The notes beneath the pieces are model-generated. The model was not told where the DNA came from, searched no databases, and saw only the letters and a list, made by a program, of their open reading frames with translations. A program made the translations under genes and the position numbers. A stretch of 64,000 bases of DNA, from assembly GCA_010645155.1 (NCBI GenBank), contig CM021316.1, positions 7,353,970 to 7,417,969 of the forward strand. The letters run 5' to 3'. Positions 2,219-18,186 of the stretch are shown here, in pieces (within the stretch, counting starts at the first letter, position 1; each line of letters opens with the position of its first letter). This DNA comes from Tigriopus japonicus (taxonomy: Eukaryota; Arthropoda; Copepoda; Harpacticoida; Harpacticidae).

Positions 2219-5200
2219 CTATTCTAGAATACCAGTCATGAATGGTAGGAGATTTGAATTTGGCACGTCCACAATAGAGAGGTCGTTTTGCAACGTGGTG
2301 TCATCTGACCCGTCTTCATCTTGATCGTCAATTCGTTCCCGTCTTTTTAATTGATCCACTATGTTGTCATTTTGTTTTTTACCGTCTACTGATTCAGTAG
2401 GCACAATATTTATAGCTTGGAGTCTCTCGACAATGTCTTGGTTGCTCTCCAATGTCGACCTTTGGCTTGAACAAGGATATTCCGTTGTGTTGCCTTCTTC
2501 AGAGCTGATGGTGGATATAGATTGCATCGAAACAATCGATTGGCGGTGCTTGGCGCGAATGGGCCTCCGAATTGTGCTAAAATGAGAGGAATTCAGCAAT
2601 TATTAGCCTGTCCTGCTAGATATAGAAACTGAGCGTCGTTAAAAAGTACTCGCATTAAGAAACAATCCCTACCTTCTCCGTCTGAGCATAAAACGAGGAT
2701 TATCGAGATCTGAATCGTCGCCGCTCTCCGCGGCTTCACTCCATTTTTCTTCCCCGGAAGGAAGTTCATCTCTGTCATCGCCGGAATCGGTGCTCTCTCC
2801 ACCGCCATCCTCATCATCGAATCGCACCACGTTGTCTCTCACAGCCGGGTTGTTGTTCTCGTTTGGTTGAATAAAAGTCCCGACACGCCTGGCCGAGCCC
2901 GGGGAAATGCGGGTCGAGTACTCGTAATTCAAGGACAAGGGACTGTAGTTGTTGGGCTGATTTAAATGCATATCGACGGACTCGCCATTTGTTATCATTT
3001 CCATGACTCGAGGATCCAGAGATCGGAGCAGTTCGTCATTGGTAAAAAAATCCGTCACCGGAGGGCATTGGCGTTCATCATCGTCGCTCGAAGATGTCTC
3101 AAATCTCGCCACGGAGATTGGATTTTGAGCAAGAGGGTTCTGATTCTCGTCCTGGTTCTGAATTGGATATGGGCTCGACCGCAAGTTTGTGTTGTCCTTG
3201 TCCAGAGGTACATTGGCGTTATGGTTATGGCGAGGAAGACTGAGGGGAGATGGGACATGCCCCAGGCCTGGAGATGCTGTACCATCAACCAGATCAGATT
3301 GAACCGATGGAGATCGATGTGAGAGTCTGGGACTGGCATAGCAGGAAGTGCGTCTCTCACCTTGGGGGCTATTCTGAGGTGAGGCTCCCGTAAGAGAACC
3401 AAAGTTGCTAGATCCATGGCTTCCAGATCTCCGATGTCGAGGCTTGCGCACTTTCAACTTCTCGGCTGTGGGATGGTATTGCTTGACATCGTCTGCCTGG
3501 TTCATGTTCGTTTTGGTAACCACTGAATCGTTTGAAAGGCACCTTGGGTTCATCTAAATTAGAAAAACAAATTTAAAAAATAGCTGATGTTTTTCTTTGA
3601 TAATGTTCAGCAGATATTCTCAAACGTGCAGTGTGTAGAAATCATGCGAGTTTTAGTATGGAGAAAGAAACAGGGCAGGTTACTATGCAATGGGTCATGC
3701 ATGCGTTCTATATAACTAATCAACTAATTGGGGAGACAATGAGCCCCCTTACCGGCTCCAAGAGAGTGAAGTTGCCATTTTCAACCCGCTTTACCCGAGA
3801 CCAATCAATCCCGACCGCCCCTGTTACTGGTGTTGGCTTGAGATTTGTAGTGATTTGTGCGCACAAGTTAGATTCAAGATGTGTGAGTGAGATCAAGTCC
3901 ATGGGATTCTCTCTTACCACAATGGAAGGATCGCCCCCGTCTAACGACTCGACTGGATTGGTTGAACATGGGTTTGGGTATTGGTGGCCCAGAAGCATGG
4001 TTGGTGGGGGAATTTTAAAAGGAGATTCTGGACTGGTAGACAACACCTCGGGTGTGGAAGGACTGGACTTTCGGCTTCGATTGGTGGATAGACTTCGGCT
4101 GGGTCGTTTGTGAAAACGGTCGGGTGTTTTCACGGAGAACGGTCGGTGCTTCTTTTTGTAGTGAGCCTTGCACCCTTGGTTATTAATCTGACGCTCTCGT
4201 CGAGCCAAGGCACGTTCGGCCTCCTCTAGGCGAAGTTTCCAGGCCGATAACTCCATGTAAAGGTCGTTGACCTTTTTCAGTTTTCTCTCGTATAACTCTT
4301 TCACATCTTGAGCATGCTTCAATTCTTGCTTTCTTTTCTTGACCAGAGCGTCCTGACCAACGATAGGCATGGTCACATCTTCACCTTTCATCCGTTCATT
4401 ATGCTCCCATACTTCGCGCTTCCACGATTGCTAAACAAATTATCAGAGGAAAAAGAACGCAAATTCGCAACGTTTTCCACCAAAACAAAAAAATCGACGC
4501 TTTTCTACCTGTGTTCGGAAGTAATCTTCTTGTTTGAAACTGAGGATTTCAACGGCGGCAATGTCGAGGTGCATGAGGATGTGTTTGAAAGAAGGGCGGT
4601 TCCTGGGTTTGGGAGCCCAACATTGCTTGACCAAAAGCTTAAACCCATCTGGACAACTGGATGGAATAGGAAGCTGAAGCGAGTTACTTCCGACTCCCCA
4701 AATGATGGCTGAACTGTCGACATTCTTGTACGGGATTTCGCAAGTCAGAAGCTCCCACAAACAAACGCCAAAGCTCCAGATGTCCACTTTTTCATTGCAG
4801 GGCTCATTTCTAATGACTTCAGGGGCCATCCAGGCCACTGTGCCTGCAAAACTCATGCATGTGGACTGATCTCCACCCCAAGCTCGGGATGTTCCGAAAT
4901 CGCTGATTTTGATGATTTCATTCCGTCCAATCAATATACTAAAAGATGGGACAGCGAAGGTAATTGTAAGAAACACTTTAAATCTTCGACGGTTGTACCT
5001 ATGACAATGAATCAATTCTAGCCTAGGACAAGTTCTTTCTAGTACTTACTTTGGACTTTTGAGGTCACGGTGAATGATTTTGTGATCATGGAGATACTTC
5101 ATTCCGGATGCCACTTGTCGCGTCCAATCGACAAGTCGTTTCGGAGGAACTCGGTCCTTTTCCTCTCGAAGGAAGTTAAACAGAGGTCCATGGGGACAAT

Positions 5201-12745: not shown

Positions 12746-15700
12746 ATGGACATCGGAAGAGACATCCTTACCAACACCCTCTTGGGAAGCAAGGATTGGG
12801 AAAAGGTATTTAGCCCTTGGTGGATCACAGTGCATCATTATCTCGTGTATTCGTTGGTGGTTTTGGGTGAGTACAATGAGATTGAACACATTAACACTCT
12901 AACAAAAATTATGCCATAACTTATAGGTCTGATTGCTCTTCCAATCAACTGCATGATTAGTGTTCAAGGTAACTGTTCCTATCATCCAGCTCATCCCAAA
13001 AATTACGTCCTGCCAATGAAAATTTGTAGAATAAACGTGGAGCTTGGACAACTTGTTATTGAAAAACGGTATTGCACTACGGAACAAAGGTTAGTGTTCA
13101 GGACGCCTAATATTATTTCCGAATACAATCTTGATGGTTCTTGATGTTCCAGAAATATTTTGAACGAGACTTTTGAGATTATCTCCACTCAAGAGGACAG
13201 CATTTTTGAATACCAAACCATTCGAAACGTCGAGTTCATGAGGGAAATGTGGAAGGCAGCAAAAGTAGGTAGCATATAGCATATTCCAAAATTTATTCTG
13301 AGCGATTGGAACTTTGTGGGTTGAATTCCCTGGCGCTCCGGCGACAACGACTTGATTTAGTTTTTACGTGAAGGATTCTCTTTGGATTTCTTGACTTTGG
13401 AGGTAGTGACGATTTTGCTGGCTTCAAATATCTTGAGCCTTCTGGTGCGAATGCCCGAAAAACTAGGGCATCAAATGAAAAGCACCTACGTCGACCGACC
13501 ACCTTTTAGACGATTTGCACGAGAGAAAACACATTTTTTGTACGTGTGGTACCACAATGGAACGCTTTGCCCATGAGCGTACGGAATTCTGAATCTTTGC
13601 GGAGCTTCAAGGCCGCACTTAATCATAGTTTAACGGCGAACTTTCAGGAACTCGGACTCTGATGTTACGGCACTACGCGGATTCTATCCTTATTTGAAGT
13701 CTCCTATGTCAATTTTGCTCAGAAAAAAAGACTCTCCAATTTATTGTGCTTTTTCGCGATTTGGAGATCTTTCTTTAAATTCTTTTTCCTATTCTCTTTA
13801 TATTCACCATGGGTGATTTGAGTGGATACTTCAATAAACAATATGAAATTTAGGTGGGAAAAGGCTCAACAGCAAGAATTTGGATCTTGTTGAGTACTTT
13901 ATATATTGATTTCTACTTTGACAGATTATTAACACTTGAGAAGTAACTCTTAGTCACTAGGACAATATTGTATTTCATATGATACTAATTTCAAATATTG
14001 TAGCTTTGATATATATTATTTTGAAGAAGGAATATCATCAATTGAAATTTGTAAAATTTCATCCAGTTTTATTTGCTGATTTTTTCAATCAGGAATACGA
14101 TTCCAGATTTACCTGGGTTTGGATGGTCCAGTTTAAGAAGACCCCATTATTTTGCAAATGAGACCTTGTTTGTGTTTCATAGATGCAGTATTTTGCTTTT
14201 CAGCTTTAGATTCAAATGCTACTCTCTCAACGCTTAATACGATATACGGTAAACCAAGGATGGCTCAAGCCAGGATTACTTTCAAAATACACACTGGGTC
14301 CGATTAGTACAATGAAAATTCAACGGAACAATACATTTGTTGCAAAAACCTCACATTTTAGTACAATGATCGGACCCAGTGTGTATTTTTGAAATTCGTC
14401 CTGACGTACAGTGGTTCCTGGGTAAACCCTCAAAACGCAATTAGTGTTTTCTTTTTCCTTTTTCCTTGGTCATGAAACAGCTCAGGAAAGTGTTATTTTT
14501 GGTGCTTATGGTGAGAGCAAATTGATATTTTGATTTTAACCAATCAACCAATCATCAAAAAGAATCAATCTTTCTTTTGCTAGTCGTGGACATCCTGCGG
14601 ATCAAATCACGGAAATTTTAAATAATAGATGCGAAAAACTCTTGTCCTCATCCAAAGGACACTTTCCTGGTTACATCAAAACCGAGCAAAAAGTAAAAGA
14701 AAGAAGAGCTCCATTGCTTCTTTTTTGGGCCAGAGTTAACTACACCTAATGCTGCACAAAATAAATGAGTTAGCTCTCCTTTAGCAACTAATTTAACCAA
14801 GGAGGGCAAGCATGGTTCTGAAAATCCAAGTCATTTCAATTTTAAGGTGCATTTAATGAATCAAGATTGCTCAGTTTATTGGGTAGAATATGAGATGCAT
14901 AAAATTATACACTCCGGGAAAGAAGAAATAAAACTATCTTATTTCTTTTTATGGGAAACATTTTATATTTTTATTTAATTCCATGGAATGCACTTAACAA
15001 ATATGCATCTTTGAACTATTTTTTAGATCACTGTTAAGTTTTATTTTTGCAGTATCAAAAGGCTTGCTTAAGTGCTTTTTATTCAATCATCCAGAAAGTG
15101 AATTTTGCCTATGCACCTTTCATGATACTCCTCCAAAGGTTTTCGAAAGTTTCAAGGCATATTGGGCAAGGAGAATTTTGTTGGATTTCAAAATTGAAGT
15201 TACAATATGTTCGAAGAGATCGTCTGGTCCAATGTGTCTATTATCAATAAAAGACAACGCTTAGAAGCCCTTGGCGGCCATCATGAAAATTAGGCATCGT
15301 GTATTAAATCGAATGATTGCGATCCTCTTTTTTTGGGCTTGGGGCTTAGAATTTTCAATTCAAACGAATAATTGAGTAAATTCAAAATTCAAAACTGAGT
15401 AATGTAGCATTCTAATATGGTGAGTTTGATCGTTTCTTGCGAAATCTTGCACCTCATTCATTTTGTGTTTGCTCGCCTCCTAGTAGAGCAATTCATTCTA
15501 TCAGCACGCTTTCATACTCATTCATGCTGCCACTTTGTATTCACACTTTAGGCCAAGGAACACACCATCAACTTCAATGATTGCTTGCTAAAATTGAATC
15601 CAAGGGCTTTTCCTTTTCACCTTTACTACGGTTGTGTGAACCAATTGGATGCTTTGGCTTTGTACTTCCCTTACTTGGTGCTAACTTTGGCACTCTTCTT

Positions 15701-18186
15701 GGTAATCCTGGAGAGATTGTGTACCAGGTGAGGACTTTTTACTTTCTTAAGGGGTTAACCATTAGGTTTCTAAGTCCAGCTAACTCTTCTAAAAAGCAAA
15801 TTTTTGTCTGATCGAAATAATGAAAACGGGTGCTTTTATTTCTCAACCCTGATGCAATTTGAATTGTCAAGAATAGGGCCCGGAAATATTTTTTTTACAA
15901 AATAGCAAATATTTAAAAAATATTTATCCGCTTTTCCTCGATTTTTAAAAATATTTTGACTGTTTCAAGGAAAAATAAATATTTTCTCGATTACTTGAGT
16001 CAGAAAAGATATTTCAGGCAAGATTGAGGAAAATAAGTGAATGACCAATGCTCAATAGGGCTTACCCAAAATGAACTAAAAAAAATGGGTGCAAATTCAC
16101 CAAAAAGTTTCTATTTTTCAGGTACTTTTGGACAGGTCGACGCATCGAAAAATTCTACGAACTTCTCGTCAAGGACATCATCGAAGAGGGTGGCTCGAAA
16201 TCCATAAACTCTCTTGAACAGCGCCAGAAATGCCAGCAGATCACGTACGATTTTATGAACTCATCCTTCCTTTGCGGATGTTACATCGCTCAAACGTCAA
16301 TCAAAGTGCTCGTGTGTCTCTCCGTTCTCATCTGGAGCATTATGGGAATGTGCCACTCTCTCAGAGAGAGCTTCAAAACTGACTTTGATTGCGAGGTACG
16401 AATGTTACGTCGCTTTGCATTTGTCACTAGCCTGTTGATAAGTTAAATAACCCAGAGTTTTTTCCTTGACTCAAGCAGCAGGAAAACCTTCCTAAAACAT
16501 CTTCTAGGCATAAATGATTTCTTGTTTTTTTGTTTTTAATCTCTAGCAATTCGACTATATGCATGCCTGTTCAATCACATCCAATGGCATGAACATTGTT
16601 TTATTCGACCTGTGCAATATTGTGGTGGCTCTGATTCTATTGGACGGCATTTTCAACGTACTTTGGCATTACCGATTCTTCTGCAGTACCAACACCCAAG
16701 GAACGATATTGATCCGCAAAACGAAATTGGACCGATTGATCTTGGATTTTGTGGCCACCAAAGAAGGAGCTGACAGCTCGTTTATGAACACATATTTCAG
16801 TTCACCGGACTTGCAAATGCTTATGAATCTTTTAGCGGCCAAAGAAGGGATTTGGGCTTCATTATTGGTGTTGAGTGCTTTTGATGCCAATTTCAAAAGT
16901 CAGTTCAAGGTGAAAAAAAACTCAATCAACAACGATATGTACCAATTAAGATCATCATCATCATCAGGTTGGTTCTAGGTCAGGGATTGCAAAATGAGCT
17001 CCCACTCCTCGAAGCTAAGCGGGATGAGAAAAGACGCCACAATTTCATGGAACGAACCTCATGCAGCCTCATTCATCGGAGAAAATGTGCCCACCGAACA
17101 TTTGATGTATGTTTTGGAGATCAATCCCCCCATCGACCTCTACAAACAAGGTGACAACGTGACCATGGTGCCGGCTTGTGCCGAAGACGGTGAATGCATC
17201 TTCAACCCATTGGTCGTTACCACCGATTGGGACGGGAAACCGACTTCGTCATTGGCCAATGCATTGGCCACCTTGGAGGAAGAATCGGAACAAGGGACCA
17301 AACAGATGCCCAAGTAGGGTTGGAATGTAGCTAAATTTAACACACATGCGTAGTAGGCCTTGAATATCACTTACACTCTTATTCAAGATTGGATAAGTCG
17401 AATTCAAGAGACAGCGGACTTTCAGATGGGTCTTCTCTCTCAGTGGCCCCAAGTAATAACAATGCTACCGAGGCCATTGTCAGCGGAACTCACTCCAATG
17501 GTCGCAATTTGCTGTCGGCTCATCTATACACTTCGACCGTTCAATCCAATCATCGGAAAGCGACGACCTCCAGGTCATTCAAGCATGCATTTGTGGGACT
17601 TCGAATGGACACGGGCTACAAAATCACCTTGAAATTTGTACTCTCGGGCCGAGCCTTGGCCTCGGAGGCCTTTACCATTTTAAGCCACGATAGTGGAAGT
17701 CGAAAAACATCGACCGTTTCTAATTCAGAATCGAATGTCGAGCCTTCGAGGGTGCAACGCTCTATGACCACCAATCAGTGGGTCCAAGTCAGCAATGACA
17801 CTGAGCTGACCGCAATGCTCGAAAGCTGTTCCACTCAGTCAGGTCATGTTATTTTAGATTTTGAGGCCAAGTGGTGTCCAAATTGCCAGAACTTACAAGA
17901 ATCACTGAAGGCAAGTGGACCCATATGTGTGCGTGTGTTTATGCACTCACTCCATTTCCTCTCATTCGTCTTTCAGGAATTGCCATCCAAGTGTCAAGTG
18001 GAGCAAGCCGTTTTCATCCAAGCAGACGTGGACGACTGTCCCAAGGTGTCGGCATCGTTCAAATTTTCCACTTTACCGGCCCTCTTCATCATCAAAGATG
18101 GACAAGTTGAAAATTGCATGATGGGAAAAGGAGCGTTGGAACATGGACCGGACATTATAACCAAGCTTTGCGCGCTGGATGAATAA
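12746..18186 (+). CDS. LRRC8/pannexin-type channel domain fused to FN3-like region and C-terminal thioredoxin domain
   Basis: Nine exons: 12746-12866, 12927-13089, 13153-13264, 15552-15727, 16122-16395, 16547-16909, 16979-17313, 17388-17910 and 17977-18186, giving 758 residues. All phases agree. The N-terminus resembles LRRC8: a PWW motif (24-26) before TM1 (about 30-50), then a cysteine-containing extracellular loop, YFPYLVL leading TM2 (about 168-186), a cytosolic loop, TM3 (about 244-265), a second loop with paired cysteines (DFDCEQFDYMHAC), and TM4 (about 297-322). The C-terminal half has no leucine-rich repeats. Instead there is an FN3-like pair of segments (ISWNEP...YVLEI near 423-453 and GLRMDTGYKITLKF near 584-600) separated by a disordered Ser-rich stretch. 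A thioredoxin fold follows, with WCPNC (Cys678, Cys681), ADVDDCPKV and the cis-proline loop FSTLPALF. Inference: a plasma-membrane large-pore anion or metabolite channel with a cytosolic redox module. That all nine exons form one transcript is inferred from phase and spacing; the junction 17313/17388 is the critical one. Confidence 0.82.
13265..15551 (+). other. Long intron 3 of the channel-thioredoxin gene
   Basis: At 2.3 kb this intron is far longer than the gene's other introns, which run about 60-400 nt. It is AT-rich and contains the short inverted-repeat element at 14271-14403. I see no additional exon with similarity to an LRRC8 extracellular loop, although a small missed exon cannot be excluded. 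Confidence 0.55.
14271..14403. repeat. Short inverted-repeat (MITE-like) element
   Basis: Two arms of about 44 nt (14271-14314 and 14360-14403) are imperfect inverted copies. They share TTTCAAAATACACACTGGG on the left and its complement on the right. The loop is about 45 nt. No clear target-site duplication is seen. It lies inside intron 3 of the channel gene. Confidence 0.8.
17911..17976 (+). other. GC-AG intron, 66 nt, frame-preserving
   Basis: The donor reads AAG|GCAAGT and the acceptor TTTCAG|G. The length is a multiple of three and has no in-frame stop, so the open frame runs through it. Removing it gives normal thioredoxin spacing between WCPNC and the ADVDD strand. Retaining it would insert 22 mostly hydrophobic residues into the helix after the active site. 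Confidence 0.65.

Follow-up and report, generated by a model that had tools for sequence, protein, structure and literature searches.

Channels of the LRRC8 family (LRRC8A-E; VRAC, SWELL1; Pfam family PF12534) join a four-helix transmembrane (TM) region and its cap to leucine-rich repeats (LRRs). According to the accessible parts of published accounts, LRRC8 arose at the origin of chordates (PMC9399500) by fusion of a pannexin-like pore to LRRs (PMC9399500, PMC3928549), Nematostella being reported to have LRRC8-like genes (PMC9399500); innexins (PF00876) have four TM helices as well and belong to the same large-pore superfamily in the available text of PMC3928549. Here we describe a gene of the copepod Tigriopus japonicus, at 12746..18186 on the forward strand of a 64,000-nucleotide stretch (the window) of C2 in the 194.9-Mb genome, whose product almost certainly carries an LRRC8-type TM region and a thioredoxin in a single chain. 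Unlike LRRC8A-E, the window protein comes from a copepod and has a juxtamembrane β-domain and a thioredoxin where LRRs, none of which were found, would be expected. The original prediction, made from the DNA letters, knew of no described protein with this architecture, and the open-licence literature, outside which most subscription papers lie, likewise yielded no LRRC8-type channel with a thioredoxin or a fibronectin type III (FN3) domain, or from a copepod; databases already carry these proteins, as uncharacterised or hypothetical.

The gene has a coding span of 5,441 bases; its nine exons, separated by seven GT-AG introns and a final GC-AG intron, encode 758 residues without interruption and then a stop. 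Exon 1 (12746..12866) supplies the start codon, the N-terminus with a PWW motif and the first part of TM1 (residues 1-40); exon 2 (12927..13089) the remainder of TM1 and the beginning of extracellular loop 1, with C57, C74 and C90; exon 3 (13153..13264) a further part of loop 1; exon 4 (15552..15727) the end of this loop (C143, C160) and TM2 (YFPYLVL); exon 5 (16122..16395) the TM2-TM3 loop, TM3 and the start of extracellular loop 2 (C281); and exon 6 (16547..16909) C290, TM4 and intracellular linker helices. The first half of the FN3-like β-domain and the start of a variable linker are in exon 7 (16979..17313); the rest of this linker, the second half of the β-domain and the first half of the thioredoxin, including the active-site WCPNC (residues 677-681; 17872..17886), are in exon 8 (17388..17910), which ends in the GC donor; exon 9 (17977..18186) holds the second half of the thioredoxin, with the cis-Pro position P723 (18076-18078), and the stop. 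All exons are on the forward strand. The junctions 16909/16979, 17313/17388 and 17910/17977, on which the prediction of one protein in continuous phase depended, are usable splice sites, the donor at 17910 being GC, not GT.

Is this one gene or two neighbours wrongly joined in the predicted model? A TAG at 17315-17317, just within intron 7, is in frame and would close a 515-residue protein; the GC donor at 17910 and three related proteins that end before the thioredoxin also favour two genes. Because the second half of the β-domain and WCPNC lie together in exon 8, only 17313/17388 could separate the two parts, and homologues speak to this junction directly. A search that covered 5.8 billion proteins returned eight rows (P0001-P0008), to which a profile search added P0009 and P0010. 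P0001 (source 'lgn', 758 aa) is the window protein at full length with a single difference, A573V; the contigs behind it measure at most 5,955 bases, a length that cannot separate genomic from transcript origin given the gene span, and P0001 is weaker than transcript evidence if it is genomic with a spliced prediction. P0002 (TCAL_11511) and P0005 (TCAL_07398), both from T. californicus, are 85% and 44% identical to the window protein, respectively; P0003 is isoform X3 of the T. californicus RefSeq gene LOC131885667, with eight additional residues at 17313/17388; and P0004, also from T. californicus, is an incomplete model that bears the name of thioredoxin H. The order TM region, β-domain, thioredoxin is kept in P0002, P0005 and P0008 (the last without TM1). 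Seven homologues (P0001-P0006 and P0008) read across 17313/17388, where an unspliced frame would stop. The junction, moreover, divides the β-domain, and a paralogue in the same genome (C21:1161025-1172104) repeats the layout, with a phase-0 intron that cuts the thioredoxin at the aligned residue. The homologues, with the paralogue, largely contradict the two-gene reading, which we set aside as extremely improbable.

Several observations concern splicing in this gene and its relatives. Exon 6 is in frame, and its equivalent is skipped in P0003, which removes TM4. The last intron (17911-17976) has 66 bases and no in-frame stop, exons 8 and 9 forming part of a single 281-aa open frame; its retention would add 22 residues to the thioredoxin. 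P0006 contains WCSIC but loses its likeness to a thioredoxin where the aligned intron lies, probably through a retained intron.

The membrane part has the landmarks of LRRC8 (PWW, YFPYLVL and the loop-2 cysteines) where the prediction had put them. But the four-helix plan is common to LRRC8, pannexins and innexins, one superfamily in the accessible text of PMC9399500 and PMC3928549; could the TM region be that of a divergent innexin or pannexin? The window protein matches PF12534 (Pannexin-like TM region) with 25.6 bits (E 8.1e-6), barely above the cut-off of 25, and the LRRC8 assignment to this extent passed the profile search. The TM regions taken alone match PF12534 at E≤10 in 7/7 members of the thioredoxin-bearing clade (best 1.4e-8), whereas PF00876 matches none of the seven at the same threshold, although it finds all five innexins of the same genome used as a control. 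Weighing against the assignment, only three of five whole proteins exceed the PF12534 cut-off (P0002, 25.3 bits; P0006, 31.6; and the window protein), with P0005 (19.6) and P0008 (14.4) below it, and the best match of the clade in PDB has an E of only 0.0088. The clade's own match to LRRC8 being modest, the strong evidence comes through a sister family of copepod proteins, P0011 among them, in which homologous TM and juxtamembrane domains are followed by FN3 repeats. LRRC8 is the sole PDB match of the sister-family profile, with three collinear segments that span TM1 to TM4 and include the loop-2 cysteines (in the two alignments shown). A structural model of a sister protein superposes on LRRC8, which makes up 26 of the 50 rows listed in a second fold search; the 50 listed in a first Foldseek search are FN3-bearing or similar, without LRRC8 among them. 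The rows listed for the P0001 model are thioredoxins or thioredoxin-bearing entries; LRRC8 is missing there because the thioredoxin domain fills the list, which is not evidence against the pore.

The five innexins, in turn, match only PF00876 and innexin-6, and reach a probability of 0.6% against the sister profile; there is thus no profile match in either direction, and the genome has its separate innexins. Innexin membership is rejected on these grounds, and a TM region of innexin or pannexin type is very unlikely overall, pannexin proper not having been compared as a separate profile; comparison of sequences supports an LRRC8-type TM region. A Pfam scan of the window protein and eight further family proteins gave no LRR family at E≤1. 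Among 46 aligned sequences (8 of the 10 clade proteins, 33 of 91 FN3-type rows and five short loci, without the isoform P0003, the partial model P0004 and the short locus on C1), C281 and C290 are cysteine in all 46, C143 and C160 in 8/8 clade members, and C57 and C74 in the five clade members that reach these positions. By analogy with LRRC8, from which the topology is taken, these cysteines would form loop disulfides, and the protein would assemble as a hexamer and conduct. Innexins and the sister family are also neighbours on the chromosome: innexin matches at C9:6667851-6680596 lie ~10-23 kb from a TM+FN3 match at C9:6658014.

How widespread is this TM region in copepods? A PF12534 search of the genome found 10 places, which read out as three tandem single-exon genes on C10 (C10:4703928-4720211; L018, L019), one on C9 (C9:6656500-6662500; L017) and a gene on C7 whose reading takes more than one frame (C7:3325300-3332300; L020). 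The alignment of this last gene with T. californicus P0030 runs through three frames and is interrupted near L020:2600 and L020:3805, at what may be introns, sequencing errors or signs of a pseudogene. The four complete sister genes have fn3 above cut-off as well as PF12534 (42.6-59.8 bits), no LRR row and no thioredoxin. A search with P0011 gave 91 rows, itself included; the 12 with an organism name are all from copepods (Tigriopus, Lepeophtheirus, Caligus, Eurytemora, with the taxonomy of three of these genera checked), although one Lepeophtheirus row also bears an inherited bat name, and some are called 'Fibronectin type-III domain-containing'. In an alignment of 58 of these rows, fn3 is present in 58/58 and PF12534 in 51/58 at E≤0.1, and no innexin appears among the 25 of 28 families listed. 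A third, short group comprises frames on C9, C7, C13 (two), C5 and C1, related to the others through tblastn and the tree; none of its six frames has a Pfam family above cut-off (the best value, 0.027, being that of fn3 for the frame on C1). In all, the genome holds ~13 family loci (C2, C21, three on C10, two each on C9, C7 and C13, and one each on C1 and C5), some of which may not be intact. In a TM tree of the sequences used for the cysteine counts, built by a quick method with a midpoint root and long-branch warnings, the thioredoxin clade occupies one side of a branch with a Shimodaira-Hasegawa-like approximate likelihood ratio (SH-aLRT) of 100, and it groups with the short relatives, apart from the FN3 clade; the branches of the short group are long (up to 1.89), so its placement is unsure. 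A single origin of the thioredoxin fusion is supported, not proved. The TM+FN3 family itself has apparently not been described, and its general interest may exceed that of the window gene.

The juxtamembrane domain of the clade is homologous to that of the TM+FN3-repeat proteins. The prediction had an FN3-like region follow the membrane part, but this label could not be confirmed: PF00041 matches the domain in none of six proteins at E≤10 (the window protein, the T. californicus paralogue P0005 and four sister genes). In the sister model, successive strands lie at 350-450, while the FN3 rows of its fold search start at 447 or later, and the AlphaFold model of P0001 has a predicted local distance difference test (pLDDT) score below 40 across most of the domain. 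The domain is a putative β-sandwich and a candidate FN3, with variable linkers on both sides of its second half. Where does this leave the proposal that a redox module replaces the LRR domain? No LRRs were found, as proposed; however, the place of the LRRs is taken by the β-domain. Judged by sequence comparison, this domain is common to a large family of copepod proteins. Those inspected outside the thioredoxin clade end in FN3 repeats or a short tail, without a thioredoxin, and the thioredoxin is an additional C-terminal module of one clade.

The thioredoxin was correctly recognised, including its WCPNC and cis-Pro loop. PF00085 matches with an E of 1.4e-12, and a TLP loop carries P723, a cis-Pro position by sequence. 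The whole fold, WCxxC and the cis-Pro position are thus shared with other thioredoxins, from which the domain differs in being the C-terminal part of a membrane protein and in having PN, GL or SI between the cysteines instead of GP, which is present in the thioredoxin L006 of the same genome. A 12-row, 108-column tree places the fused domains with L006 (WCGPC) at a fork with support of 91/88, not starred, with a branch of 2.36 leading to the two window-type sequences; another WCGPC domain, L007, lies on the opposite side of this midpoint-rooted tree. The fused domains group with L006, not with six WCGHC domains, and a PDI-like origin was set aside, within the limits of a small midpoint-rooted tree.

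What would a thioredoxin do beneath a pore? In the explanation that we prefer, the gene product would serve as a subunit in a large-pore channel of LRRC8 type, with four TM helices and a disulfide-bearing extracellular cap forming the pore of a probable hexamer. Beneath the membrane, a β-sandwich-like domain would stand in place of LRRs, and a flexible linker would tether the thioredoxin below the pore, where it could reduce cytosolic cysteines, or enter mixed disulfides with them, in the same subunit or in adjacent ones; the cytosolic thiol state would thereby set channel opening. Candidate targets are C228 (16231..16233), in the TM2-TM3 loop and cytosolic by analogy with LRRC8, and C470 (17177..17179), in an MPAC motif of the β-domain. 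Both are cysteine in 8/8 thioredoxin-clade proteins. At the C228 column, none of 33 FN3-type proteins (all R) and none of five short relatives has a cysteine; at the C470 column, the counts are again 0/33 (31 gapped) and 0/5 (two gapped). Glutathione permeates LRRC8 channels, according to the accessible text of PMC6895240, and in the available part of PMC9399500 oxidants raise the activity of vertebrate LRRC8A/E and lower that of LRRC8A/C and LRRC8A/D, which makes a thiol-controlled pore plausible by analogy. We infer redox gating and conduction by the window protein, and the explanation as a whole, drawn from sequence, is quite possible while falling somewhat short of probable. Bolder, and doubtful at present, is the idea that copepods evolved a self-contained redox-gated channel, in which the tethered thioredoxin would read or set the thiols of C228 and C470 and so gate a large pore for anions and osmolytes, perhaps glutathione, within a copepod LRRC8-type radiation whose LRRs were replaced by, or had always been, β-sandwich domains.

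Several findings tell against thiol-set gating. FN3-type relatives carry a cysteine four columns past C228 in 32/33 cases, so the thioredoxin clade is not alone in having one in this loop. The P0001 AlphaFold model is too poor (mean pLDDT 51) to yield a distance from the CxxC to C228 or C470. Isoform X3 (P0003) would lack TM4, and P0007, P0009 and P0010 terminate shortly past the MPAC motif, with tails that differ directly after MPACSV or MPACTV; intron retention, readings from genomic DNA or genuine short forms might each account for these ends. The inner dipeptide of the CxxC varies between PN, GL and SI, and the thioredoxin is 80% identical to that of T. californicus, versus 90-100% in TM segments, and 22.5% identical to that of the paralogue, versus 52-86%; a domain more diverged than the pore fits less well with a strictly conserved control role. 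The low identity to the paralogue, with the long branch of 2.36, would suit a fold of drifting sequence, retained for its shape or for binding and of little redox importance; against this improbable reading stands WCxxC in all five inspected sequences that reach the region (P0001, P0002, P0005, P0006 and P0008). Or is the thioredoxin a membrane-anchored enzyme or docking module, localised by the channel part and serving other clients or assembly without gating the pore? Retention of the CxxC and cis-Pro positions while the remaining domain diverges speaks for such a module, the variable linkers around the second half of the β-domain would permit action away from the pore, and complete sister genes manage without a thioredoxin. 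Against it stands a hint of intramolecular partners: C228 and C470 never vary within the clade, and 38 relatives have no cysteine at these columns, an argument that the nearby cysteine of FN3-type proteins weakens for C228. An enzyme tethered for other clients is a modest possibility in its own right, and nearly as likely as the gating that we favour.

Intron 3 has features of its own. An inverted repeat at 14284-14389 has 34-nt arms, 82% complementary and 38 nt apart; by eye, the intron that interrupts the thioredoxin of the C21 paralogue has a similar stretch (L038 ~4555-4670), which suggests perhaps a small mobile element. Two overlapping open frames at 13361-13662, which we take to resemble the end of a retrotransposon protein, have no match in Pfam, which did not confirm this likeness.

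A copepod family of ~13 loci with an LRRC8-type TM region, in which no LRRs were found, bears on where the pore came from and what its cytosolic domains are for. As a natural chimera within this family, the thioredoxin clade opens redox control of these channels, described for vertebrates as an effect of oxidants in the accessible text of PMC9399500, to tests by point mutants.

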